Below, piece after piece: positions 51,534 through 64,000 of a stretch of DNA of 64,000 nucleotides. Both the position numbers and the translations under genes were made by a program. Position 1 is the first letter of the stretch. Each line of letters opens with the position of its first letter. This DNA is from Burkholderiales bacterium (GTDB lineage: Bacteria > Pseudomonadota > Gammaproteobacteria > Burkholderiales > Burkholderiaceae_C). The stretch covers positions 62,001 through 126,000 of the forward strand of contig JAGWLO010000001.1 in the NCBI GenBank assembly GCA_028872015.1, read 5' to 3'. Below the pieces are notes generated by a model. That model did no database searches. It was given only the letters and a program-made list of their open reading frames with translations, and was not told the origin of the DNA.

Positions 51534-51809
51534 GGTGGTGGCGGTGGTGGCGGTGCTTGCAGCGGGGATCGCAAGCCGTGGGCACAGATTCTCGGCAACG
51601 CGGCCGCCCGCGTCCAACCCGGACACCTTCTATCACGCCGCCGGCGACCCGGTGGCCGGTGCGCGATGCCGGGTACAAGCCAAGAACAATCCGCTCCCGA
51701 CCGCGCTATTCCGGCCCTGGCTGCGGCGCCGGCTGCCTAGCATCGGCCCCAGCACCGCGGCGTGCGCCTGCGCCGGGCGCGGCGCGGCGTTGCCGAAAGG
51801 ATGTGCGCG

Positions 51810-54320
51810 ATGTCCGACCTGTCCCAGCCTGCGCTCGCGGTCCTGCCCGACGAGGCGGCGACCTTCGCCTGGCCCACGCCCGACCTGGCCGGCTACCCGG
51901 CACCCGGCCCGCTGGGCCGCCATCCGGCCTGCCGCATCGAAGGCCTGAACGGCCGCACGATCGAAGGCCAGCTGCTGCGCTTCGATCCCGTGCCCGGACT
52001 GCTGCAGGTGCGCACCGCGGGCGTGGCGAAGCCGGTATCGCTGCGCTTCGACCAGTTCCGCCGCCTGTGCCTGCTCGATCCGGTGCCGGCGCTGGAAGCC
52101 CCGGGCGACGCGCGCGACCTGGCCGGCGAGCGGCCGCAGATGCCGTTCCGGGTCGAGTTCGGCAACGGCAACCTGTGGGAAGGCCGCACCGTGGGCCGGC
52201 GCGAGGAACCCTCGGGCCTGTTCCTGTTCGAGCCGCTGGACGAGCGCGGCACGGTGCGGCGCTGGTTCGTGCCCCGGCCGGCCTACGTGGAGGCCGAGGT
52301 GGGCTTGCGCATCGGCGAGGCGCTGATCGCCCAGCGCTCCGCCACGCCCGATCAGATCGCCTCGGCGCTGGCCGAGCAGGACGCGTTGCGCACGCGCAAG
52401 CTGGGCGACCTGCTGCTCGAGCGTCACATCATCACGGCGGCCGAGCTGGGCCTGGCGATCGACCACCAGGCCCGGATGCCGATGGTGCGCATCGGCGAGG
52501 CGCTCACGGGCCTGGGCCTGATCACCGAGGCGCAGCTGCAGGAGGCGCTGGCATTGCAGCGGCAGGACCGCGGCGTGCCGCTGGGCGAGCTGCTGGTGCG
52601 CCGGGGCGCCGTCACGCAGGCCGACCTGCAGACCGCCCTGGCCCGCAAGATGGGCTACCCGCTGGTGGACGTGCTGCAGTTTCCGGCCGATGCCGAGGCC
52701 GTGGCGCGGCTGCCCTACGCCGTGGCCAGCCGACTGCCCGCGCTGCCGCTGCTGCTGCGCGGCGGGCGCCTGGTGGTGGCGGTGGAAGACCCGTCCAACC
52801 GCGCCCGGCTGGACGAACTCGAGTTCGCCGCCCAGTGCAAGGTGGTGCCGGTGCTGGCGCGCAGCGGCGTGCTGCAGGCGGCCGTGGACCGGGCTTACGA
52901 GAAGATCGGCGCCGCCAGCTTCGCGCTGCGCCTGCCGGGCGATCCGGCCACGCCGATCGACTACGAGATGGGCAACGCCAGCAAGCTGCTGGCCAGCATG
53001 GAAAGCGGCGCCGACCCGCGCCCCGACGAGGACGACGGCAGCGTCATCGAGCAGAGCGACAACACGCTGGTGCGGCTGATCAACTCGATGATCGTCGAGG
53101 CCCACACGCAGGGCGTCTCCGACATCCACATCGAATGCACCGGCGGGCGGGAGAAGGTGCGCATCCGCTTCCGCAAGGACGGACAGCTGCGCCCCTACCT
53201 CGAGCTGCCGCCCAGCTACCGCAGCGCCATCATCGCGCGGCTGAAGATCATGTGCGACCTCGACATCAGCGAGCGCCGCAAGCCGCAGGACGGCAAGATC
53301 AACTTCGCCAAGTTCGTGCAGGGCGTGCGGCTGGAGCTGCGCGTGGCCACCATCCCCACGCAGAACAACCTCGAGGACGCGGTGCTGCGCCTGCTGGCCT
53401 CGAACCGGCCCATCCCGCTGGACCAGCTGGGGCTGGCGCCGGCCATCCTGGAGCGCGTGCGCGAAGCGGCGCAGCGCCCGCACGGCCTGTTGCTGTGCGT
53501 GGGCCCCACGGGCTCGGGGAAGACCACCACGCTGCACTCGGTGCTGAGCAGCATCAACACCGCCGAGCGCAAGCTGTGGACGGCCGAGGACCCGATCGAG
53601 ATCACGCAGCAGGGGCTGCGCCAGGTGCAGGTGAACCCGCGCATCGACTGGACCTTCGCCAAGGCGCTGCGCGCCTTCCTGCGTGCCGACCCGGACGTGA
53701 TCATGGTCGGCGAGATCCGCGACCAGGAGACGGCGCAGGTGGCGATCGAAGCCTCGCTCACCGGCCACCTGGTGCTGTCCACGCTGCACACCAACAGCGC
53801 GCCCGAGACCGTCACGCGGCTGCTCGACATGGGCATGGACCCGTTCAACTTCGCCGATGCGCTGCTGGGCGTGCTGGCGCAGCGCCTGGTGCGCCGCCTG
53901 TGCAAGCAGTGCCGCAGCGAGACCGACGCCAGTCCGGAGGAAGAGGACGAGCTGCTGCAGGACTACCTGCACGCGATGAGCGGCGCCGACAACCCGCCCG
54001 GTGCCGACGCGGTGCGGGCCGACTGGCGCGCCCGCTTCGGCCGCCAGGTGGCCGCCGACGGCACCCGCAGCGGGCCGCTCGCGCGCTACCGCTGCGCCGG
54101 CTGCGAGCAGTGCGGCGGCAGCGGCTACCGCGGCCGCGCCGCCATCCACGAGCTGATGATGGTGTCGCGCGGGCTGCGCCACCTGATCCAGACCAACAGC
54201 CGCGCCGACGACCTGGAACGTCACGCCCTGGGCGAAGGGCTGCGCACGCTGCGCCAGGACGGCATCGAGAAGGTGCTGGCCGGGGTGACTTCGATCGAGG
54301 AAGTGCGGGCCAACTCCTAG
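51810..54320 (+). CDS. GspE/PilB-family secretion or pilus ATPase
   Basis: An 836-aa hexameric ATPase. After a 160-residue N-terminal region with no family I recognise come MshEN-type repeats (about 165-330: RIGEALIAQRSATPDQIASA, KLGDLLLERHIIT) and the ATPase: Walker A GPTGSGKTTTLHS, Asp box, Walker B VGEIRDQETAQVA and His box TLHTNSAPET. A zinc site uses CKQC and CAGCEQC, separated by a 70-residue insert. ATG 51810 has AAAGGA 8 nt before; ATG 51801 is an alternative. The usual GspE/PilB is about 570 aa. No platform, secretin or pilin gene is adjacent. Confidence 0.87.
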   Translation: MSDLSQPALAVLPDEAATFAWPTPDLAGYPAPGPLGRHPACRIEGLNGRTIEGQLLRFDPVPGLLQVRTAGVAKPVSLRFDQFRRLCLLDPVPALEAPGDARDLAGERPQMPFRVEFGNGNLWEGRTVGRREEPSGLFLFEPLDERGTVRRWFVPRPAYVEAEVGLRIGEALIAQRSATPDQIASALAEQDALRTRKLGDLLLERHIITAAELGLAIDHQARMPMVRIGEALTGLGLITEAQLQEALALQRQDRGVPLGELLVRRGAVTQADLQTALARKMGYPLVDVLQFPADAEAVARLPYAVASRLPALPLLLRGGRLVVAVEDPSNRARLDELEFAAQCKVVPVLARSGVLQAAVDRAYEKIGAASFALRLPGDPATPIDYEMGNASKLLASMESGADPRPDEDDGSVIEQSDNTLVRLINSMIVEAHTQGVSDIHIECTGGREKVRIRFRKDGQLRPYLELPPSYRSAIIARLKIMCDLDISERRKPQDGKINFAKFVQGVRLELRVATIPTQNNLEDAVLRLLASNRPIPLDQLGLAPAILERVREAAQRPHGLLLCVGPTGSGKTTTLHSVLSSINTAERKLWTAEDPIEITQQGLRQVQVNPRIDWTFAKALRAFLRADPDVIMVGEIRDQETAQVAIEASLTGHLVLSTLHTNSAPETVTRLLDMGMDPFNFADALLGVLAQRLVRRLCKQCRSETDASPEEEDELLQDYLHAMSGADNPPGADAVRADWRARFGRQVAADGTRSGPLARYRCAGCEQCGGSGYRGRAAIHELMMVSRGLRHLIQTNSRADDLERHALGEGLRTLRQDGIEKVLAGVTSIEEVRANS

Positions 54321-54329
54321 GCCCGGGCG

Positions 54330-56279
54330 TCAGGGTCGGGGCGTCAGCACCGCATCCAGCAGGTCGGGCGTGCCCGGCACGCGCTCGAGGTGCGGGTAGC
54401 GCAGGCCGCCGTGGTAGTCCACCGACACCGTGCGGTAGCGGTTGTCGGCCTTCACCAGCAGCGCGATGGCGCCCGCGCCGGGCGCGGCAGCGTCGCGGAT
54501 GGCCTGCTGCAGCACGTCGGCGTCGTACGGCACGCCATTGACGGCCACCAGCGTGGCGCCGGTGGGCAGGCCGGCGGCGAAGGCCGGGCCATCCCAGCGC
54601 ACGTCGCTCAAGCGGTCGTCCTTGCCCACCGCCAGGCCGATGGAATAGTTGAAGTCGGTGTACTTGTACAGCGCCTCCTGCGCCTTGGCCAGGGCGCTGG
54701 GCTGGTCGGTGTAGACCAGCCGCCAGCCGCCGCGCGCGATGCCGTCCAGCGGCGCGCCCGGGCCATGCCCGTCCAGGCGCCGGCGCAGGAAGCCGGCCCA
54801 GTCGTGCGGCAGCACGGCGTTCAGCGCCGCCACCACGTCGCCGAAGGTGTAGGTGACCGGCACATAGCTGCCGTCGTCGATGCCGAAGAAGGCGCGCGCG
54901 AAGTCGTCCAGCGATTTCTTGCCGCCGGTCTGCTGGCGGATCAGCGTGTCGGCGTCGAGCCAGATCAGGGCGCCTTCGGCGTAGTAGTCCAGGCCGCGCG
55001 TCCAGCTGCGGTAGCCGCTGGCGGCGTTGCGCGTGTTCACGATCTCGCCGTTGGTGGTGTCCTGCAGCGAGCGCCAGCGGCGGCCCGGCTCGTGGTCGAG
55101 ACGGGCCGCCATCAGCGCGATGCTGTCCCGCACCTGCTGGCGCGTCAGCAGGCCGCTGCGCGCGGCCAGCACCTGGCCCCAGAACTGGGTCTGGCCCTCG
55201 TACACCCACAGCAGGCTGTCGCGCATGGGCGTGGTGTAGTCGGGCGTCCACAGGTCGGCCGGGCGACGGAACTTGCCGTTCCAGGAATGCGCGTACTCGT
55301 GCGGCAGCAGGTCGCGGTCGGGCGCGGTGGCATCCCAGTCGGTGAAATACCTCGGTCCGGTGCCGTTCTCGCTGCTGCGGTGGTGCTCGATGCCGACGCC
55401 GCCGATCTCGTCGTCCAGCGTGAGCAGGAAGTCGTAGTGGTCGTAGTGCTGGCTGCCGAACAGCCTGGTGGCCTGCTGCACCAGCCGGCGGTGGGCGTCG
55501 AGCTGCGCCGGCGTGGCCGCCAGGTGCGCCTCGTCGTCGGCGAACACGTTCAGGTGCACCGGCACCGGCGCGCCCGGGGCGAGGTCGTAGCGGCGCATGT
55601 GGCTGCCGGCGTAGAGCGGCGAATCCACCAGCGTCTCGTAGGTGGTGGGCGCGAAGCGGGTGACGTCGCCTCCGGCCTGCGGGGTGGTGGCGGCGCCGTC
55701 CAGCGCGCTGGCAAAGCGCCAGCCCGCGGGCAGCCGCACGCTGGGCTGGATGCGGATGCCGCTGACGGCATAGCCGGCCGGCACCAGCGAGACGCCGCCC
55801 CACTTCAGCACCAGCATCTCGGGCGTGACGGCGGCACCGCTGAACGAGCCCGAGCCGGGCGCGGTCTGGGCCAGCTCCAGCTCGATCTGCTCGGCGCCCG
55901 GCGGCACGACGATGTGGAAGGCCGTCATCTCCACCGTGTCGCGCACCCAGGCCAGGCGCTGGCCGTTGGCGCTGATCACGAGCCCGGCCAGCAGGTTGAT
56001 CGGCCCGGTGGGCGCGTGCTCGCCGGGTATCCATTTCGGCAGCGACAGCGTCATCGGCCCCGGCCCGGCCACCGGGATGGTCTCGCGCACGCGGTAGATG
56101 TGGCGCGCCACGTCGGTGGCATCCACCTGCAGCGTGAGCAGGCCCGGGTAGGGCACGGCGCGGCCGGCCGGGATGGCCGGCGGCAGCGGCGCGCCCACCG
56201 GCTGCGCGAAGGTGGCGGGAAGCAGGGGCGCGCAGAGGCCGGCGCCGATCAGCGCCAGCCCGGACAACAGCGACTTCAT
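54330..56279 (-). CDS. M61-family metallopeptidase with PDZ domain
   Basis: A 649-aa secreted zinc aminopeptidase-like protein. The signal peptide is residues 1-26 (FAQ end). The zinc motif is LLPHEYAHSWNGK (HExxH near 320), followed by LWVYEGQTQFWG with the third ligand Glu. A PDZ domain lies near the C-terminus (DGPAFAAGLPTGATLVAVNG). Members cleave Gly/Ala-rich peptides. It begins inside the stop of the PlcP-like gene (ATGA), so it belongs to the PHO-box-controlled operon, a context not expected for this family. Confidence 0.9.
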   Translation of the reverse strand: MKSLLSGLALIGAGLCAPLLPATFAQPVGAPLPPAIPAGRAVPYPGLLTLQVDATDVARHIYRVRETIPVAGPGPMTLSLPKWIPGEHAPTGPINLLAGLVISANGQRLAWVRDTVEMTAFHIVVPPGAEQIELELAQTAPGSGSFSGAAVTPEMLVLKWGGVSLVPAGYAVSGIRIQPSVRLPAGWRFASALDGAATTPQAGGDVTRFAPTTYETLVDSPLYAGSHMRRYDLAPGAPVPVHLNVFADDEAHLAATPAQLDAHRRLVQQATRLFGSQHYDHYDFLLTLDDEIGGVGIEHHRSSENGTGPRYFTDWDATAPDRDLLPHEYAHSWNGKFRRPADLWTPDYTTPMRDSLLWVYEGQTQFWGQVLAARSGLLTRQQVRDSIALMAARLDHEPGRRWRSLQDTTNGEIVNTRNAASGYRSWTRGLDYYAEGALIWLDADTLIRQQTGGKKSLDDFARAFFGIDDGSYVPVTYTFGDVVAALNAVLPHDWAGFLRRRLDGHGPGAPLDGIARGGWRLVYTDQPSALAKAQEALYKYTDFNYSIGLAVGKDDRLSDVRWDGPAFAAGLPTGATLVAVNGVPYDADVLQQAIRDAAAPGAGAIALLVKADNRYRTVSVDYHGGLRYPHLERVPGTPDLLDAVLTPRP

Positions 56280-57217
56280 GGGGTAACGGGAAGCGGAAGC
56301 GGGCGCCGAGTATCACCCAGGCCCGGCGCGGCGGCGGTGCCGGCGGCGGCCGGCAGGCCGGTGCCGCCCGCGCGCTGCGTCCAGTCGAGGATCTCGAGCC
56401 GGCCGTCGGCGTGCTCGACCAGCGCGGTCAGGCTCTCGACCCAGTCGCCGTCGTTGCAGTACAGCACGCCGCCGATGGTGCGGATCTCGGCGTGGTGGAT
56501 GTGGCCGCAGACGACGCCGTGCAGGCCCCGCTGGCGCGCCTCGCGCGCGACCGCGGCCTCGAAATCGGCCAGGTAGCTCACGGCGCGCTTGACCTTGAGC
56601 TTGAGGTAGCGCGACAGGCTCCAGTACGGCAGCCCGACCCGCGCCCGCACCGAATTCAGGTGCCGGTTCAGCCGCAGCGTGAACTCGTAGGCCGAGTCGC
56701 CCAGGTACGCCAGCCACTTGGCGCACTGCACGACGCCGTCGAACAGGTCGCCGTGCGTGACCCACAGGCGGCGGCCGTCGGCCGTGACGTGCACGCAATG
56801 TTCCAGCACGTCGACGCCGCCGAAGTTGTGGCCCAGGTACTTGCGCGCGAACTCGTCGTGGTTGCCGGGCACGAAGATCACGCGCGTGCCCTTGCGCGCC
56901 TTGCGCAGCAGCTTCTGCACCACGTCGTTGTGCGCCTGCGGCCAGTACCACTGCCGCCGCAGCTGCCAGCCGTCGATGATGTCGCCCACCAGGTAGAGCG
57001 TCTCGCACTCGACGCTGCGCAGGAAGTCGAGCAGCGCCGCCGCCTGGCAGCCCGGCGTGCCCAGGTGCAGGTCGGAGATCCACACGGTGCGCACCTGCAG
57101 CCCGGCCGGGCCGGCCTCGGGCGGGTCGGGGTGGTGCGGAGCCGGTCCGGGCGGGGCAGGCAGTTCGTCGCGGCGCATGACGCGGGCGATCGTGGCGGCG
57201 GCGCGCGACGCCGTCAT
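56276..57217 (-). CDS. PlcP-like metallophosphoesterase (phospholipid remodelling candidate)
   Basis: A 313-aa calcineurin-like phosphoesterase. Metal ligands are in SDLHLGTPGC, GDIIDGW, GNHDEFAR, THGDLFDG and GHIHHAE. The segments ISDLHLGTPGCQAAALLDFL and WYWPQAHNDVVQKLLRKARK match the family that includes rhizobial PlcP, a phospholipase C that turns phosphatidylcholine and similar lipids into diacylglycerol under phosphate limitation. Automatic annotation often names it UDP-2,3-diacylglucosamine diphosphatase. It is flanked by an MGDG-type glycosyltransferase and controlled by a PHO-box-like site. The first 40 residues are a Pro-rich extension; an internal Met14 start is possible. Confidence 0.85.
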   Translation of the reverse strand: MTASRAAATIARVMRRDELPAPPGPAPHHPDPPEAGPAGLQVRTVWISDLHLGTPGCQAAALLDFLRSVECETLYLVGDIIDGWQLRRQWYWPQAHNDVVQKLLRKARKGTRVIFVPGNHDEFARKYLGHNFGGVDVLEHCVHVTADGRRLWVTHGDLFDGVVQCAKWLAYLGDSAYEFTLRLNRHLNSVRARVGLPYWSLSRYLKLKVKRAVSYLADFEAAVAREARQRGLHGVVCGHIHHAEIRTIGGVLYCNDGDWVESLTALVEHADGRLEILDWTQRAGGTGLPAAAGTAAAPGLGDTRRPLPLPVTP

Positions 57218-58389
57218 GACGCCACGGCGTCAGCGCGGTGACGCGCGTGCGCCGACGACAGCGGCGGCGCCGCCTGCCCGGCCAGCACCCGCGCCAGCAC
57301 CTCGGGCACTTCGAACACCGCCCGGTTGTCGACGGCGGCCACGCGGGCGCCGAACTCGGGCAGCCGCTGCGTCAGCGTCTGCACCGCGGCCCCCACCTGG
57401 CCGAAGCTGCGCAGCACCACGCCCAGGCCCTGCGCGCGCACCCACTCGGTGTTGTAGCGCTCCTGCGGCATGGTCCAGGCGTTGCGCGTGACGATCACCG
57501 GCAGCCCCAGCTGCACCGCCTCGCTCAGGCTGCCGGGCCCGGGCTTGCCGATGAAGAAGTCGGCCAGGCGCATCCAGCGCGCCACCTCGGGCGTGTAGCC
57601 CACCACCACGCGCGGCGCCGGCGCCGGCAGCGCACGCAACGCCTGCGCCAGCGCCTCGTTGCGGCCGCACATCAGGATCAGCGGCGTGGCCGGCAGCGCC
57701 TGCGCGATGCGCTTCATCACGCCCGAGCCGGTGCCACCGAACAGCACCAGGCCGGTGGGGGTGGCCGCATCCAGGCCGGCGCGCAGGCGCTCGGCGGCGC
57801 GGTCGATCGGCGGGCCGAGGTGGAACTCGGGCCGCAGCACCATGCCGCTGACGCGGTGCACCCGCGCCGGGTCGCAGCCGGCGGCCAGCGCCTGCTGCAC
57901 GGCGTGCTCGCTGCCGCACACCAGGTGCTGCGCCAGGCCGGGCTCGATCCAGAAATGCGGCGGGTGGTCGGCCAGGTCGGTGAGCACGGTGACGAAGGGC
58001 ACGCCGGGCCGCGCCAGCGCCAGGCTGTCGTGCAGCGCGCGGTTGAAGTTGGGGATCAGCGAGACCACCAGGTCGGGCCGCGTGGCCTGCCAGTGCCGCG
58101 CCAGGCGCTGCACCAGCGCACCGTGGCCGAGCCGGATCAGCCCCTGCAGCAGCTTCAGCTCCTGCGCCAGGCCGAGCGTGAAGCCGCTGGCCAGGCGCTT
58201 GTTGTACAGGTCCTCGGGCTCGATGCCGGTGAGGCGGCGGAAGCGCGCCGTCGGGTCGAGCACCTCGGTCAGGTTGACCTTGCGCACGCGCCACGGCCGG
58301 CCCTGGGCCTGCATCACCTGGGCCAGCGCCTGGGCCGCGGCGCGGTGGCCGCCGCCGGCGTTGAACCACACCAGATCGATGGTCGTCAT
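57214..58389 (-). CDS. MGDG-synthase-type glycosyltransferase (GT28-like)
   Basis: A 391-aa GT-B enzyme. The N-terminal WFNAGGGHRAAAQAL is the MGDG-synthase/MurG-like acceptor motif, LFGGTGSGVM and GKPGPGSLSEA are the nucleotide-sugar binding segments, and VLTDLADHPPHFW is conserved. Such enzymes add a sugar to diacylglycerol. It overlaps the PlcP-like gene by 4 bp, whose product would supply the diacylglycerol. Three PHO-box half-sites lie 24 bp upstream of its start. MurG itself is excluded by context and length of the acceptor domain. Confidence 0.85.
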   Translation of the reverse strand: MTTIDLVWFNAGGGHRAAAQALAQVMQAQGRPWRVRKVNLTEVLDPTARFRRLTGIEPEDLYNKRLASGFTLGLAQELKLLQGLIRLGHGALVQRLARHWQATRPDLVVSLIPNFNRALHDSLALARPGVPFVTVLTDLADHPPHFWIEPGLAQHLVCGSEHAVQQALAAGCDPARVHRVSGMVLRPEFHLGPPIDRAAERLRAGLDAATPTGLVLFGGTGSGVMKRIAQALPATPLILMCGRNEALAQALRALPAPAPRVVVGYTPEVARWMRLADFFIGKPGPGSLSEAVQLGLPVIVTRNAWTMPQERYNTEWVRAQGLGVVLRSFGQVGAAVQTLTQRLPEFGARVAAVDNRAVFEVPEVLARVLAGQAAPPLSSAHARHRADAVAS

Positions 58390-58412
58390 GGCGCCGATGG
58401 TTGGGCCGGCGC

Positions 58413-58441
58413 ATGACGCTCGCATGAACGCGGCATGACAC
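58413..58441 (-). promoter_or_regulatory. Triple PHO-box-like element of the GT-PlcP-M61 operon
   Basis: On the minus strand three 7-mers, GTGTCAT (58441-58435), CGTTCAT (58430-58424) and GCGTCAT (58419-58413), are spaced exactly 11 bp start to start. PhoB binds direct repeats of CTGTCAT with 4-bp spacers. Matches to consensus are 6/7, 5/7 and 5/7. The element ends 24 bp before the glycosyltransferase ATG. Confidence 0.7.
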
Positions 58442-58484
58442 CGCGGTGGCGTGGACCCGGGGCGGCCCGCCGGCCGCGCTGGTC

Positions 58485-59543
58485 TCAGGCGCCGCCGTGC
58501 TCCAGCGCGTAGGGCCACTCGGCGATGCCGCCGGCCAGCGACATGGCGTGGATGCCGCGCTCGCGCAGCAAGAAGGTGGCGGCGCGGCTGCGCCGGCCGT
58601 TGCGGCAGTAGACGACGTAGGCGCTGTCGACGTCGATGGCGTACACGCCCTCGTGGCGCAGCCGCTCCAGCGGCAGCAGCCGCGCGCCGGGGATGCGCCC
58701 CTCGGCATGCTCGGCCGGATGGCGGCAGTCCAGCAGTTGCACCGCGCCGCGCGCCAGCAGCGCGTGCGCGCGGCGGGCGTCGATCTCCTCGACCATCGGC
58801 GGTCGCAGCAAGGCGTCGAAGTCGTCCTTGCCCAGCGTCAGCAGCTGGCCGGGTGTGGTCATGGTCACGGTGGCGGTGCGCTCGCCGCCGACCAGCAGCG
58901 CTTCTTCGCCGAAGCTGTCGCCGTCGCTGAGCCGGTTCACCAGCACCGGGCGGCCGCTGTCGGGGTCGGTCTCCCAGACCTCGGCATCGCCGGCGAGGAT
59001 GACGTAGTAGCGGTCGCCCGCCTCGCCCTGGGTGACGATGGTCTCGCCCGCCGCCACCGGCCGCTCGACCAGGCGGTTGATGGCCTTGGCCACGTTCTCC
59101 AGCGGCAGGCCGTGGAAGACCTTCAGGTGCGACTCGGGCAGCACGAAGGCGCCCAGGAAATCCCAGCCCAGCAACTCGTCGAGGTCGTCGCTGTCGATGC
59201 TCAGCACCTCGGCGTCGGTGGTGGCGCGCACGCGCAGCTGGCTGCTGGCGGCGCTGACGAGCGCGAAGCCCGGGCCCTGGGCATCGACGACGACGCGGCG
59301 CGCATGCGCGCGCTCGCTGCCGTCGGGGTCGCGCCAGCGCCGCCGCGCCTCGAGCTCGCCGGCCAGCAGCACCACGTGGTGCTGCAGCCCTTCGGGCGAG
59401 TCGTCGATCCAAGCACCGGCCGGCACCAGCCGCCGCGGGCTGCGTTCCAGCAGCGCCAGCAGTTGCGCCTTGGGCAGCGGCGAGAACATCGTCGTCGCGG
59501 CCAGGCGCCGGGCGAGATCGGCAAGGGTCAGGTCGGCTCGCAT
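58485..59543 (-). CDS. Cyclic-nucleotide-binding and rhodanese fusion protein
   Basis: A 352-aa cytoplasmic protein. Residues about 15-115 look like a degenerate cNMP-binding domain, residues about 130-245 a better one (GETIVTQGEAGDRYYVILAG, DGDSFGEEALL with ERTATVTM as phosphate-binding cassette), and the C-terminus a rhodanese (QLLDCRHPAEHAEGRIPGA, active-site Cys in YCRNGRRSR). There is no DNA-binding HTH, so it is not a CRP-type activator. It follows psd with a 16-bp overlap. It may sense a nucleotide and carry sulfur or redox chemistry; role unknown. Confidence 0.83.
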   Translation of the reverse strand: MRADLTLADLARRLAATTMFSPLPKAQLLALLERSPRRLVPAGAWIDDSPEGLQHHVVLLAGELEARRRWRDPDGSERAHARRVVVDAQGPGFALVSAASSQLRVRATTDAEVLSIDSDDLDELLGWDFLGAFVLPESHLKVFHGLPLENVAKAINRLVERPVAAGETIVTQGEAGDRYYVILAGDAEVWETDPDSGRPVLVNRLSDGDSFGEEALLVGGERTATVTMTTPGQLLTLGKDDFDALLRPPMVEEIDARRAHALLARGAVQLLDCRHPAEHAEGRIPGARLLPLERLRHEGVYAIDVDSAYVVYCRNGRRSRAATFLLRERGIHAMSLAGGIAEWPYALEHGGA

Positions 59544-60505
59544 GGCGGGCGTTCAGGGCTGGCAACGCCCTGATTCTGCCCGGCGTGTCGATCGCGCGCC
59601 GCGCCGGGCGCCTGCGCGGCCGCCGGCAGGTGCAGCAGCGCCTGCCCCATGCGCACGCGCTGCCCGGTGGCCAGGCCGGGGGCGGGCGCGAAGCCCGGCG
59701 GCGCGAAGACGATGATGGTCGAGCCGTGTTCGAACCAGCCCAGCTCCTGGCCCTTGGCCACGGCGGCATCGCAGGGCATCTCGTTCGGCCCCGGCCAGCG
59801 CAGATGCAGCAGCACGTCCAGGAAGTGCAGCCGGATGCTGGCCACCAGGATCGCCGCCACCGGCACCAGCGCGATCGGGTGGCCGCCCTGCGCCGCCGAC
59901 AGCCGCATCCGTATCAGTGCCCGCTCGTTGCGGCAGAACAGGCGCTCGACCCGCTTCAGCGCGATCGGGTTCACGTTCCAGGTGTCGCCGCCCAGGTAGC
60001 TCACATGCTCGATGCGGCCGTCGTGCGGCGCGTGGAAGCGGTGGTACATGCTGGAGGTCAGGCGCAGCGTGACGTAGCAGCCGCCCTCGAACGGCGCGGC
60101 ACGCTCGGCCGTGCCGAACAGGTCGGCGATGCGGTACGGGAAACCCTTGGCCTGCAGCAGCACGCCGGCCTGCACCGTGCCGGTTTCGCCCACGATGCCG
60201 TCGCAGGGGCTGGCCAGCACCCCGGGCCGCGCGTCCACCGTGCGCGCGCCGGGCCTGAGTTCGCGCGTGAAGCATTCATGCAGGCTGGCGTAGCGCCGGG
60301 GCTGGGCTTCGCGCAGGTCGAGGTCGGTGAACAGCCGCCACACCGCGATCGAGGCGGCGCACACCCAGGGGTGGCGGATGCGGCTGAACCAGCCCATGAA
60401 GCGCGTGAGCGCGATCCGCGGCACGCGGTTGGTGAGCAGGAAGTTCAGGTCTTCCTGCAGCAGCAGGCGGTCGCGCCAGTCGGCAAGTCGGAGCTTGGGT
60501 TTCAT
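59528..60505 (-). CDS. psd: Phosphatidylserine decarboxylase
   Basis: A 325-aa membrane-associated decarboxylase that makes phosphatidylethanolamine. It has RYASLHECFTRELRPGAR, LASPCDGIVGETG, YHRFHAPHDGRI, and the self-cleavage site FEHGSTIIVF, in which the GST Ser becomes the pyruvoyl group (the common LGST appears here as HGST). The N-terminus carries a hydrophobic segment. The C-terminal 40 residues are a low-complexity tail. It is divergent from the class III aminotransferase with 53 bp between and overlaps the cNMP/rhodanese gene. Whether this is the only psd in the genome cannot be told. Confidence 0.88.
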   Translation of the reverse strand: MKPKLRLADWRDRLLLQEDLNFLLTNRVPRIALTRFMGWFSRIRHPWVCAASIAVWRLFTDLDLREAQPRRYASLHECFTRELRPGARTVDARPGVLASPCDGIVGETGTVQAGVLLQAKGFPYRIADLFGTAERAAPFEGGCYVTLRLTSSMYHRFHAPHDGRIEHVSYLGGDTWNVNPIALKRVERLFCRNERALIRMRLSAAQGGHPIALVPVAAILVASIRLHFLDVLLHLRWPGPNEMPCDAAVAKGQELGWFEHGSTIIVFAPPGFAPAPGLATGQRVRMGQALLHLPAAAQAPGAARDRHAGQNQGVASPERPPCEPT

Positions 60506-60509
60506 AGGC

Positions 60510-60527
60510 CTGTCAACACGCAGACAT
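60510..60527 (+). promoter_or_regulatory. PHO-box-like site upstream of the class III aminotransferase
   Basis: CTGTCAA, a 4-bp spacer CACG, and CAGACAT: 11 of 14 positions agree with the double CTGTCAT PhoB site. It ends 31 bp before the aminotransferase ATG, in the 53-bp divergent gap with psd. A single pair is weaker than the triple element at 58413. Confidence 0.5.
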
Positions 60528-60558
60528 ACAACCGGGCTTCCACCACCGGGAATCCCGC

Positions 60559-62220
60559 ATGAACGACGTCTTCGACCTCGGCACCCTGGCCGGGGCCTGC
60601 GCCCTGGCCGCCCTGGGCCTGGCCTGGCCGCGGCTGAGCCGGCGGCTGGCGCTGTCGCGCGCCAAGCACCCGTCGCTGACCGGCCACGCGCGCATCGCCA
60701 AGCGCGTGGCCGCGCTGGTGCCGGGCTACGCCTACGACGAGGCGCGCTTCTTCGGTGCCGACGGGGCGCCACCCGAGGTGCTGGCCCGCCGGCGCGCGGG
60801 CTTCGTGCGCCTGGCCGCGCACCTGAACACGCGCCACGCGAAGTCGATCGCGCTGACGCAGAGCGCACGCGCGGGCATCTCGGATCTGCAGTTCACCGGC
60901 GCCTACCGGGTGCCCTTCCAGTTCAGCCGCTACCTGCGCCAGCAGGTCGGCATCGGTGCGTTCGTGCAGCGCACCGACGGCGTCCTGGTCACCGACCTCG
61001 ACGGCCAGCGCTTCTACGATCTGACGGGCTCGTACGGCGTGAACGTGTTCGGCCACGATTTCTACAAGGCCTGCATCGCCGAGGGCGCTGCGCGCGCGGC
61101 CGAGCTGGGCCCGCTGCTGGGCAGCTACCACCCTGCCGTGGCCTGGAACGTGGAGCAGCTGCAGCGCCTGTCGGGCCTGGACGAGGTGAGCTTCCACATG
61201 AGCGGCACCGAGGCCGTGATGCAGGCCGTGCGCCTGGCCCGCTACCACACGCGGCGGCCGTACCTGGTGCGCTTCAGCGGCGCCTACCACGGCTGGTGGG
61301 AAGACGTGCAGCCCGGCCCCGGCAACCCGCTGCCGCCGGGCCGCACCTACACGCTGAAGGAGATGGACGCGCGCACGCTGAAGGTGCTGCGCCAGCGCCG
61401 CGACATCGCCTGCGTGCTGGTCAACCCGCTGCAGGCGCTGCACCCCAATGCCGCCGCCCCGGGCGACAGCGCGCTCATCGACAGCTCGCGCCGCGCCGGC
61501 TTCGACCGCGCGGCCTACGCCGCCTGGCTGCAGCAGTTGCGCCAGGTGTGCACCGAGCGCGGCATCGTGCTGATCTTCGACGAGGTGTTCGTCGGCTTCC
61601 GCCTGGGCATCGGCGGTGCGCAGCAGTACTTCGGCGTCCAGGCCGACCTGGTGACCTACGGCAAGACGCTGGGTGGCGGCCTGCCGGTGGGCGTGGTCTG
61701 CGGCAAGGCGGCGCTGATGAAGCGTTACCGCGAAGAGCGCCCGGCCGACATCTGCTTCGCCCGCGGCACCTTCAACGCCCACCCCTACGTGATGGCGGCG
61801 ATGCAGGTGTTCCTGGAGCGGCTGCACAGCGAGCCGGTGCGCGTCATGCTGCAGGGCGCCGACGAGCGCTGGAACCGCCGTGCCGAGCAGCTGAACCTGC
61901 GGCTGCGCGAGGCCGGCCTGCCGGTGCAGGTGGCCAACCTGGGCAGCATCTGGACGGTCTACTACACCCAGCCCAGCCGCTACAACTGGATGCTGCAGTT
62001 CTACCTGCGCGAGCAGGGCCTGCTGCTGAGCTGGGTGGGCACCGGGCGCCTGATCTTCAGCCTGAACTACGGCGACGAAGAGTTCGAGGCGGTGCTGCAG
62101 CGCTTCGTGGCCGGGGCGCGCGCGATGCAGGCCGACGGGTGGTGGTGGGCCGGCCCAGGGCTGACGAACAAGGCCATCCGGGGCTCGGTGTTGCGGGAGA
62201 TGCTGCGGCATCGGTTTTGA
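60559..62220 (+). CDS. Membrane-anchored class III aminotransferase
   Basis: A 553-aa PLP enzyme. Residues 8-30 (LGTLAGACALAALGLAWP) make an N-terminal hydrophobic segment, not seen in ordinary family members. The fold type I core resembles glutamate-1-semialdehyde aminomutase: SGTEAVMQAVRLAR, FSGAYHGWW, DEVFVGFR and the Schiff-base Lys in TYGKTLGGGLPVG. HemL is excluded by the 110-residue N-terminal extension and the context. It could transaminate a lipid head group or a sugar, but no evidence fixes the substrate. PHO-box-like site upstream. Confidence 0.85.
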   Translation: MNDVFDLGTLAGACALAALGLAWPRLSRRLALSRAKHPSLTGHARIAKRVAALVPGYAYDEARFFGADGAPPEVLARRRAGFVRLAAHLNTRHAKSIALTQSARAGISDLQFTGAYRVPFQFSRYLRQQVGIGAFVQRTDGVLVTDLDGQRFYDLTGSYGVNVFGHDFYKACIAEGAARAAELGPLLGSYHPAVAWNVEQLQRLSGLDEVSFHMSGTEAVMQAVRLARYHTRRPYLVRFSGAYHGWWEDVQPGPGNPLPPGRTYTLKEMDARTLKVLRQRRDIACVLVNPLQALHPNAAAPGDSALIDSSRRAGFDRAAYAAWLQQLRQVCTERGIVLIFDEVFVGFRLGIGGAQQYFGVQADLVTYGKTLGGGLPVGVVCGKAALMKRYREERPADICFARGTFNAHPYVMAAMQVFLERLHSEPVRVMLQGADERWNRRAEQLNLRLREAGLPVQVANLGSIWTVYYTQPSRYNWMLQFYLREQGLLLSWVGTGRLIFSLNYGDEEFEAVLQRFVAGARAMQADGWWWAGPGLTNKAIRGSVLREMLRHRF

Positions 62221-62366
62221 GCAGGTCGTCGCATGCCTGACGGTGCCGACGTGGCGGCTGGCGGGCTCGCGACGCAGCCGCCTGCGCGTAGCCGGTGCAG
62301 GCCGATGCCGGGGCTTGCGTGCTTGCAGACCGACGGCGCTGCGGCCCGCGCCGCGAGGCGCATCCC

Positions 62367-62984
62367 TCACCCGCCGGAAGCCCCCCGGGCATGGTGCATC
62401 GGATCGATCAACTCGCCCCGAAGCAGGTGCCCCGGAGCGCGCCGATACAGCCACGCATCGTGGAACGGGTCGGTCACGATCTTGGTCGCCCACACGAGCC
62501 CGGTCTGCAGGTCGCGCAGGAAGAACAGGTGCACGGTGCGGAACAGCAGGCCGCCCACGCCCAGCGCCAGCCAGGCCATGCCGACGTTGTGCAGGTAACC
62601 CGAGAAGTCCGGCGCCGGCGCGATCAGGCCGAACACGGAGGGCGACCCCCACAGCAGCACCGGCGCCAGCGCCCAGGCCGTCATCAGCACCACCTTGCGG
62701 CGCAGGTTGTAGCCGACCTTGATCGCTTCCTTGTGCTCGTGGGTGGCGAGGTTGACGTCGTCCCAGCCGCGCGGCTCGAAGAAGAAGTGGCCGGCCTGGC
62801 GCGTGGTCATCGACACACCCCAGGCCAGCAGCGCCGCGCTCGCCGGGTCGACGAACAACAGCGCGTACGCGGCCAGGAAGCTGAGCGCGCTCACGAAGTG
62901 CAGCGCCTGGTTGATGCGGCTGTGGTGGTAGTAGCGGTGGTCGTCCCAGCGCTGGGTGGCCAGGGCTTGCAGAAAATTCTTCAC
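62367..62984 (-). CDS. Multi-pass membrane protein, His-rich
   Basis: A 205-aa protein starting at GTG with ribosome site CAGGAG 7 nt before. About four hydrophobic helices (near 28-50, 52-66, 98-115, 130-150) are interrupted by His-rich loops: HRYYHHSRINQALHF, RQAGHFFFEP and THEHKEAIKVG. The spacing of His-containing segments resembles the Mpo1/DUF962 lipid-metabolism dioxygenases or fatty-acid hydroxylases, but the match is weak. It is divergent from the GT4 gene, with PHO-box-like repeats in the gap. No function assigned. Confidence 0.65.
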   Translation of the reverse strand: MKNFLQALATQRWDDHRYYHHSRINQALHFVSALSFLAAYALLFVDPASAALLAWGVSMTTRQAGHFFFEPRGWDDVNLATHEHKEAIKVGYNLRRKVVLMTAWALAPVLLWGSPSVFGLIAPAPDFSGYLHNVGMAWLALGVGGLLFRTVHLFFLRDLQTGLVWATKIVTDPFHDAWLYRRAPGHLLRGELIDPMHHARGASGG

Positions 62985-63023
62985 CGAAGGGCTCCTGATC
63001 GCAGCGGCGGTGCCGGTTGCACC

Positions 63024-63076
63024 GTGACGGGATCGTGACCGGGCGCGATGAACGGGCCATGAACCGACGGTGACGG
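63024..63076 (-). promoter_or_regulatory. PHO-box-like direct repeats upstream of the membrane protein gene
   Basis: On the minus strand, CCGTCAC, GGTTCAT and CGTTCAT (ends at 63070, 63059, 63048) are 11 bp apart, and CGGTCAC and CCGTCAC (63035, 63024) form a second 11-bp pair. Each shares 4-5 of 7 bases with CTGTCAT. They lie 40-92 bp before the GTG at 62984. Confidence 0.45.
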
Positions 63077-63093
63077 TTGCGTGTCGGTGCGCC

Positions 63094-63111
63094 CTGTCAT
63101 CGCCCTGTTGC
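63094..63111 (+). promoter_or_regulatory. PHO-box-like site upstream of the GT4 gene
   Basis: CTGTCAT (perfect), 4-bp spacer CGCC, then CTGTTGC (4/7). It ends 14 bp before the ATG at 63126. If the gene starts at the GTG 63081, the site would lie inside the coding region, so the ATG start is favoured. Confidence 0.5.
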
Positions 63112-63125
63112 GCAAGCCGCCGACC

Positions 63126-64000
63126 ATGGTCGCCATGCTGCAAGCGCCAGACGAATCGATCCGGGTCGACGAGCTGCTGCCGCCACGCCGCTCGCTGCGC
63201 GTGGCGGTGGTGACCGAGACCTACCCGCCCGAGGTCAACGGCGTGGCGGCCACGGTGTGGCAGGTGGTCGAAGGGCTGCGCCGGCAGGGGCACGCGCTGC
63301 AGCTCATCCGGCCGCGCCAGGACGGCGCCGATGCCGCCAGCCGCGAGCCCGGCTTTGCCGAGCTGCTGATGCGCGGGCTGCCCATCCCGCGCTACCCGGC
63401 GCTGCGCATGGGCCTGCCCGCGCGGCGCGCGCTGGTGCGGCACTGGGCCCTGCACCGGCCCGACGTGGTGCACGTGGTCACCGAAGGGCCGCTGGGCTGG
63501 TCGGCCCTGCAGGCGGCGCGGCAGCTGCGGCTGCCGGTGGTGAGCGACTTCCGCACCAATTTCCATGCCTACAGCCGGCACTACGGCGTCGGCTGGCTGC
63601 GCCTGCCGGTGATGGCCTACCTGCGCAAGTTCCACAACCAGTGCGCCTGCACGATGGTGCCCACCGAGGACCTGCGGCGCGAGCTGCAGGCGGCCGGCTT
63701 CCAGGGCCTGCGCGTGGTGGCGCGCGGGGTCGATGCGCAGCACTTCGACCCCGCGCGGCGCAGCCCGGCCCTGCGCGCCACCTGGGGCGCCGGGCCCGAC
63801 ACGCTGGTGGCGCTGTGCGTGGGCCGGCTGGCGCCGGAGAAGAACCTGGGCCTGCTGCTGGACGCGGTGGCCGCCATGCAGGCGATCCACCCGCCCCTGC
63901 GCCTGGTGCTGGTGGGCGACGGCCCCGAGCGCACGCGGCTGCAGCAGCGCTGCCCGCAGGCGCTGTTCGCCGGCACGCAGCGCGGCCCGGCGCTGGCGGC
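63126..64000 (+). CDS. Agt-like family 4 glycosyltransferase, 3' truncated
   Basis: The first 291 residues of a GT-B enzyme; the frame is open to the end of the window. RVAVVTETYPPEVNGVAATV is the N-terminal nucleotide-fold start of GT4 enzymes acting on diacylglycerol or mannolipids. DVVHVVTEGPLGWSAL, the acceptor-side SDFRTNFHAYSRHYG, and VGRLAPEKNLGLLL (start of the donor domain) follow. In alphaproteobacteria plcP is adjacent to agt, a GT4 that makes glucosyl- and glucuronosyl-diacylglycerol under low phosphate. ATG 63126 is chosen; GTG 63081 is an alternative. Confidence 0.85.
   Translation, partial: MVAMLQAPDESIRVDELLPPRRSLRVAVVTETYPPEVNGVAATVWQVVEGLRRQGHALQLIRPRQDGADAASREPGFAELLMRGLPIPRYPALRMGLPARRALVRHWALHRPDVVHVVTEGPLGWSALQAARQLRLPVVSDFRTNFHAYSRHYGVGWLRLPVMAYLRKFHNQCACTMVPTEDLRRELQAAGFQGLRVVARGVDAQHFDPARRSPALRATWGAGPDTLVALCVGRLAPEKNLGLLLDAVAAMQAIHPPLRLVLVGDGPERTRLQQRCPQALFAGTQRGPALA

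Follow-up and report, generated by a model that had tools for sequence, protein, structure and literature searches.

The 64,000-nucleotide stretch analyzed here (the window; bases 62001-126000 of contig C121 in a Rubrivivax-like Burkholderiales genome of 3.80 Mb and 147 contigs) ends in a group of genes that is probably a PhoB-controlled membrane-remodeling locus, and these genes very probably serve to replace membrane phospholipids by sugar lipids under phosphate depletion. Beside genes for a PlcP-type phospholipase C and two glycosyltransferases (GT28 and GT4), the locus holds genes for a second Psd-family decarboxylase (psd2), a class III aminotransferase (AT3), and an Mpo1-like membrane protein; this trio travels with the phosphate response, as shown by its conservation, and appears to be a new membrane-lipid module under Pho control, whose chemistry we predict from sequence.

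PlcP, the glycosyltransferases, and the PHO-box arrays

The original prediction, made from the letters of the window, had placed a PlcP-like phosphoesterase, an MGDG-synthase-type glycosyltransferase, a psd gene, and a GT4 enzyme in this region, and all four are there (Table 1). The window PlcP, in which what we take to be the metal-site motifs are intact, is 59% identical over 236 amino acids to a Pseudomonas aeruginosa protein encoded beside an Agt-type glycosyltransferase. From this adjacency and the main text of PMC8528852, we infer that protein to be PA3219 and its neighbor to be PA3218. The best plcP relatives of the window belong to Rubrivivax and other Burkholderiales; the best 80 related loci of a longer list formed the comparison set, together with samples of 120 genomes from the order and 232 from the class. 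Neighboring genes were counted by tblastn because gene calls had missed the window's Mpo1-like gene and the plcP of one relative (L004).

Genes of phosphate metabolism accompany plcP in 24 of the 80 loci (ppk in 20, ppx in 15, pstS in 9, and phoX in 7). The loci ordered GNAT-plcP-Agt-ppk-sixA, followed by ppx and pst genes, include L068, L071, and L079, and Pho genes or sixA also lie nearby in L108, L118, L136, L140, L144, and L145. The last of these, from the same genus as the window, is a single island of ppk-sixA-GT4-Mpo1-AT3-psd2-GT28-ugd-ppx-phoX-plcP, in which the GT28 match falls in two pieces. Such neighbors support the phosphate link independently of the promoter motif, mostly through plcP.

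GT28 scores 26.7 bits against PF06925 (cut-off, 25), which places it in the MGDG-synthase family, and its closest solved structure is MGDG synthase 1 (4wyi, 2.9e-20). It occurs in 17 of the 80 plcP loci and an Agt-type glycosyltransferase in 20 (22 at a looser threshold), never both together (p 0.004, kinship ignored). The GT4 enzyme had been predicted to be Agt-like, and with P. aeruginosa Agt1 as the query it is the sole match in the genome at E 1e-10 (41% identity there, 36% over 361 columns). However, a 60-sequence tree puts the window GT4 in a clade of 37 with its relatives, split with support of 100/100 from the 23 sequences of Agt1 and its group; this rules out orthology with Agt1. The window enzyme is nearer to a second P. 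aeruginosa glycosyltransferase, WP_003116486.1, which stands outside the tree set and with which it shares 52% identity; this protein, itself 35% identical to Agt1, is probably Agt2 (PA0842). UDP-glucose dehydrogenase genes, present in 8 of the 80 plcP stretches, in 4 of 8 same-genus AT3 stretches, and once in this genome, fit the use of glucuronate.

PHO boxes were sought with a matrix of two heptamers, set by hand from the Escherichia coli consensus together with pst loci in this genome and in relatives, with the window left unused. Sixteen matches in the 64 kb score at least 9; the top three, and 9 of the 16 in all, fall in 60499-60527, 63024-63087, and 58413-58452. The null for arrays was a set of 20 simulated 64-kb sequences (first-order Markov). 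Four-unit arrays reach 23.8 before GT28, 23.8 in the Mpo1/GT4 gap, and, by a small margin, 14.5 in the psd/AT3 gap, versus a null maximum of 14.1; three-unit arrays reach, in the same order, 23.2, 19.8, and 21.5 (null maximum, 22.8; null mean, 12.7). The best single pair, at 17.0, lies below its null maximum of 19.3. Because the long arrays exceed the null and the pairs do not, it is the arrays, not the pairs, that go beyond chance within the window. The best triples at unit steps of 9, 10, 12, and 13 score 14.1, 7.3, 15.6, and 11.9, the real step being 11 bp. The three arrays are the strongest of their kind in the 64 kb and sit in three of the gaps between putative transcription units, much as the original prediction had it. 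A strict pattern, CNGTCAYNNNNCNGTCAY, matches twice in the 3.80-Mb genome, once in the window, and its reversed control does not match at all; the other match (G000:C104:5390-5407; L167) lies between genes that read as ExbB/MotA-like and XseA-like.

The genome also encodes PhoB (332 bits; cut-off, 296); its gene is on contig C83 close to pstS, and the pstS stretch there has a PHO site of 17.7. A site of at least 15 is found in 11 of 12 high-scoring pstS stretches, which informed the matrix and are therefore not independent of it. The repeats are kept in related genomes, where the 4-bp spacer stands out in three promoter sets, the psd/AT3 and Mpo1/GT4 promoters counted (42 and 34 loci) being those between divergent genes with a gap of under 600 bp. 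Sites of at least 15 with this spacer occur in 19 of the 42 psd/AT3 gaps (at most 3 for each of nine other spacers), in 15 of the 34 Mpo1/GT4 gaps (at most 1), and upstream of plcP in 18 of 95 cases (at most 2), compared with 0.8-2.2% of random segments of the same loci. In that scan the window's own psd/AT3 and Mpo1/GT4 sites score 14.7 and 16.3; the matrix background differed between scans, so that the scores of one site vary slightly. The P. aeruginosa plcP locus has a score of 15.7 upstream of plcP. PHO boxes thus stand at promoters of the locus and are conserved in relatives, as in members of the Pho regulon.

By homology, the course of events at low phosphate would be as follows. PhoB would bind the three tandem PHO arrays; PlcP would cleave phospholipids to diacylglycerol; GT28 would convert diacylglycerol to monoglycosyl-diacylglycerol, taking the role that Agt1 has elsewhere; and the putatively Agt2-type GT4 would form an anionic diacylglycerol lipid, probably glucuronosyl-diacylglycerol. 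The proposal that a Burkholderiales bacterium follows the PlcP/Agt strategy is supported as to PlcP, a glycosyltransferase partner, the PhoB gene, the Pho neighbors, and the conservation of the PHO boxes in relatives, a check that the original prediction had itself named; an Agt1 identity for GT4 is not.

The psd2-AT3-Mpo1 trio

The psd gene of the locus is present as predicted; it is, on closer comparison, a distinct second Psd. Like the housekeeping enzyme, it passes TIGR00163 (148.7 bits; cut-off, 111.75) and keeps the GST that we take to be part of the cleavage motif. Unlike it, the psd2 group carries HGST (46 of 47 sequences) where the psd1 group carries LGST (15 of 15), with a median identity of 32% between the groups and 36 columns that distinguish them (one being a gap) in the comparison of 47 psd2 with 15 psd1 sequences. 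The housekeeping sequences came from 15 of 19 stretches that could be matched, the other four, from more distant genomes, having been left out. A separate LGST-type Psd is encoded on contig C3, and the window gene is rejected as the housekeeping psd.

AT3 is closest, by both sequence and fold, to the aminotransferase domain of mycosubtilin synthase, in the glutamate-1-semialdehyde (GSA) aminomutase branch of class III; unlike that domain, it is a free-standing protein, has an extended N-terminus with a predicted helix, and is found in a lipid-gene context. Its model has a mean predicted local distance difference test (pLDDT) score of 77, and the N-terminal helix is predicted with low confidence. 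In the Mpo1-like family, all 19 aligned members match PF06127 at an E of 0.1 or better (best, 1.8e-5). An hhalign comparison of the family alignment with a P. aeruginosa Mpo1-like protein gave a probability of 3%, and a fold search with the model (pLDDT 82) gave no match at E 0.001 or better. A P. aeruginosa record has a true Mpo1-like gene (L123:6926-7243; PF06127, 145 bits) two genes from plcP-agt.

The three genes stay together. AT3 occurs in 20 of the 80 plcP loci, with psd2 in all 20 (in L008 with an additional 1.1 kb between AT3 and psd2) and the Mpo1-like gene in 18, the other two loci being cut by contig ends. Orthologues of AT3 (at least 54% identity; six matches at 30-51% were left out) are found in 15 of the 120 genomes of the order, the window's own included, and in all 14 others fetched the three genes are adjacent. 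At E 1e-50, plcP is present in 15 of these 15 genomes versus 43 of the 105 others (p 6e-6, kinship ignored), and it lies within about 10 kb of AT3 in 9 of them. The number of psd genes follows AT3 as well: among 21 genomes, some of them incomplete, all 10 with AT3 have two and all 11 lacking it have one (Fisher p 3e-6, kinship ignored), and one of the two is always on the AT3 contig.

Across the class, AT3 occurs in 8 of the 232 genomes sampled, six of them outside the window's family; the stretches of these six hold psd2 in four (in two of these about 3 kb from AT3), the Mpo1-like gene in six (once at 26% identity), plcP in three, and an Agt-type glycosyltransferase in three. A Sphingomonas plasmid carries the trio (53%, 62%, and 62% identity) together with a methyltransferase, and one of its two best PHO boxes in 21.6 kb is in the psd2/AT3 gap, where it again touches the start of psd2, and the other precedes the methyltransferase-Mpo1 unit. 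The trio spans Burkholderiales, other gammaproteobacterial genomes (in the GTDB sense), and a Sphingomonas plasmid. In the Sphingomonas trio, the S-adenosylmethionine-dependent methyltransferase gene overlaps the Mpo1-like gene (L169:9015-13107), which suggests a methylated product in that lineage.

As to function, psd2 would decarboxylate a serine-type lipid head group, and the putatively membrane-anchored AT3 may transaminate a membrane-bound carbonyl or amine, so that the trio would make or dismantle an amino-group lipid replacing, or salvaged from, phosphatidylethanolamine (PE). We tentatively propose, at somewhat less than even confidence, that the trio is an undescribed PhoB-controlled pathway in phosphate starvation, leading to a new amino-group lipid or forming a new route for dismantling PE.

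Alternative readings and points against

Among the alternatives, the one that survives best, though we consider it unlikely, is that AT3 acts on the acyl chain: it would transaminate a beta-keto acyl group and the Mpo1-like protein would trim a 2-hydroxy chain, yielding a nitrogen-bearing tail for an aminolipid. The mycosubtilin synthase domain, to which AT3 is nearest, acts on beta-ketoacyl chains, and Acetyltransf_5 genes, which we take to be of the OlsB type, occur in 18 of the 80 plcP stretches. This proposal leaves psd2 unexplained and leans on an Mpo1 membership that is weak; no carrier protein was noticed beside AT3, in the absence of a search aimed at one.

Two further proposals are decidedly improbable, and to an equal degree. 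In one, the trio salvages phosphate, with psd2 feeding PE, PlcP freeing phosphoethanolamine, and AT3 acting as a phospho-lyase that yields inorganic phosphate, ammonia, and acetaldehyde. Phospho-lyases do occur in the class III fold, and such a role would suit a Pho locus with a Psd beside PlcP; AT3, however, falls in the mycosubtilin aminotransferase/GSA branch, and no protein named as a phospho-lyase appears among the 34 solved sequences at E 1e-20, so that this identity is without sequence support. Nor would a soluble substrate need a membrane anchor, and the Mpo1-like protein is left unexplained. In the other, PHO control is limited to PlcP and the glycosyltransferases, and the trio is an older neighbor with a general membrane role that shares their promoters. 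The location of plcP more than 10 kb from AT3 or on another contig in 6 of the 15 AT3 genomes speaks for this, whereas the presence of plcP in every one of the 15 and the PHO boxes at trio promoters with no adjoining plcP (on the Sphingomonas plasmid and, at 20.1, in L112) speak for a link of the trio itself to the phosphate response. That plcP is an ordinary LpxH-type lipid A gene beside unrelated housekeeping genes and chance repeats can be dismissed as extremely improbable: public annotation does name its homologues UDP-2,3-diacylglucosamine diphosphatase, but the LpxH models score far below their cut-offs (44.1 bits against 134 and 38.6 against 190), in line with the predicted PlcP identity, and the PHO statistics and Pho neighbors argue against it as well.

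Several observations weigh against a PhoB-controlled remodeling locus with the trio as a part of it. GT28 barely exceeds its Pfam cut-off, and the window's Mpo1-like protein, at 21.2 bits, falls below that of PF06127 (24). L006 is the only one of the 20 AT3 loci in the 80-locus set to contain ppk, ppx, pstS, or phoX, and in 4 of the 6 class-level genomes psd2 is either missing from the stretch or separated from AT3 by about 3 kb. Many related promoters have no site of at least 15: 23 of 42 for psd/AT3, 19 of 34 for Mpo1/GT4, and 77 of 95 for plcP, the last set including genes internal to operons. The first half-site of the psd/AT3 array overlaps the psd2 start codon, in many relatives too, which inflates the conservation of this box and clouds how psd2 is transcribed; the Mpo1/GT4 and GT28/plcP sites are therefore the cleaner evidence. 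Finally, the related loci share kinship, and counts among them are not independent.

Gene layout and known systems

By position, the genes form five putative transcription units: GT28-plcP-M61, psd2-cNMP/rhodanese, AT3, the Mpo1-like gene, and GT4 (Table 1). GT4 is annotated from a GTG that a PHO unit at 63070 overlaps; its true start is probably further inside. Among the new members that had been proposed for the locus, the class III aminotransferase and the His-rich protein proved conserved. The M61 peptidase and the cyclic nucleotide monophosphate (cNMP)-binding/rhodanese protein have no match near plcP at the tblastn threshold in the sets of related loci (0/80, 0/14, 0/6, and 0/8). Two distant M61 matches, of 26-28% identity, do occur in L020 and L052, but over 5 kb away from plcP; otherwise both proteins are confined to this genome among the loci examined, and they were dropped as cluster members. 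Adjoining the M61 gene is a gene (51762-54320) for a GspE/PilB-type ATPase with MshEN, a cyclic di-GMP-binding motif, and a long N-terminal part.

Table 1. Features of the locus, in window coordinates
Feature	Position	Strand	Basis and remarks
M61 peptidase	54330-56279	-	PF05299; positionally last in GT28-plcP unit
plcP-type phospholipase C (metallophosphoesterase)	56276-57217	-	PF12850/PF00149
GT28, MGDG-synthase-type diacylglycerol glycosyltransferase (predicted)	57214-58389	-	PF06925; 4-bp overlap with plcP
PHO-box array, 4 tandem 11-bp units	58413-58452	-	Before GT28-plcP-M61; weight matrix and array null
cNMP-binding and rhodanese protein	58485-59543	-	PF00027, PF00581; overlaps psd2 end
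psd2, second Psd-family decarboxylase, HGST motif	59528-60505	-	TIGR00163
PHO-box array, 3 units, psd2/AT3 gap	60499-60527	+	Weight matrix; reads toward AT3
AT3, class III pyridoxal phosphate-dependent aminotransferase	60559-62220	+	PF00202
Mpo1/DUF962-like His-rich membrane protein	62367-62984	-	PF06127, below cut-off
PHO-box arrays, Mpo1/GT4 gap	63024-63041 and 63048-63087	-	Weight matrix, strict pattern
GT4, probably Agt2-type	63081-64000 (window end)	+	Runs 385 bases past the window; L002:1082-2386

Other genes recur near plcP in the related loci. A major facilitator superfamily (MFS) transporter gene (PF07690) is present in 12 of the 80 stretches, among them L055 (4102-5376), L013, L025, L026, L032, and L049, and is often near GT4; we take it to be LplT-like, which hints at lysophospholipid recycling. 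In ten loci, mostly from Variovorax (L014, L020, L022, L028, L029, L036, L037, L038, L040, and L043), plcP lies near another conserved set, which includes what read as a 588-amino-acid hydrolase-like protein and a putative CDP-alcohol phosphatidyltransferase and is possibly another phosphate-linked lipid set.

In the lipid renovation system of P. aeruginosa (PA3219, PA3218, and PA0842), as set out in the main text of PMC8528852, PlcP works with Agt1, which makes MGDG, and Agt2, which makes glucuronosyl-diacylglycerol (GADG). The window resembles this system, as that text presents it, in its PlcP, its Pho boxes, its two predicted diacylglycerol glycosyltransferases, and the likeness of its GT4 to the probable Agt2; unlike it, the window has GT28 beside plcP instead of Agt1 and holds the trio in addition. 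The main text of PMC4796936 describes six arrangements of plcP neighborhoods in marine heterotrophs, which the window resembles in having plcP beside glycosyltransferases and in its Pho boxes; a word search of that main text for Betaproteobacteria and Burkholderi- gave no hit. The words aminotransferase, decarboxylase, DUF962, and Mpo1 are likewise absent, by the same kind of search, from PMC8528852, PMC4796936, and PMC9239053 as far as their main texts go. The PlcP literature found, as far as titles and the beginnings of abstracts indicate, deals mainly with marine bacteria, Agrobacterium, a methanotroph, and Pseudomonas. By the same parts, none of the papers listed connects PlcP remodeling with a class III aminotransferase, a second Psd, or an Mpo1-like protein, with most subscription journals and a Burkholderia cenocepacia phosphorus-stress proteome lying outside the scope of that survey.

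The PlcP strategy can now be traced in Burkholderiales, where the partner glycosyltransferase differs and a conserved trio accompanies it at PHO-box promoters. These three genes provide a short, testable list for a presumed lipid step in phosphate starvation.

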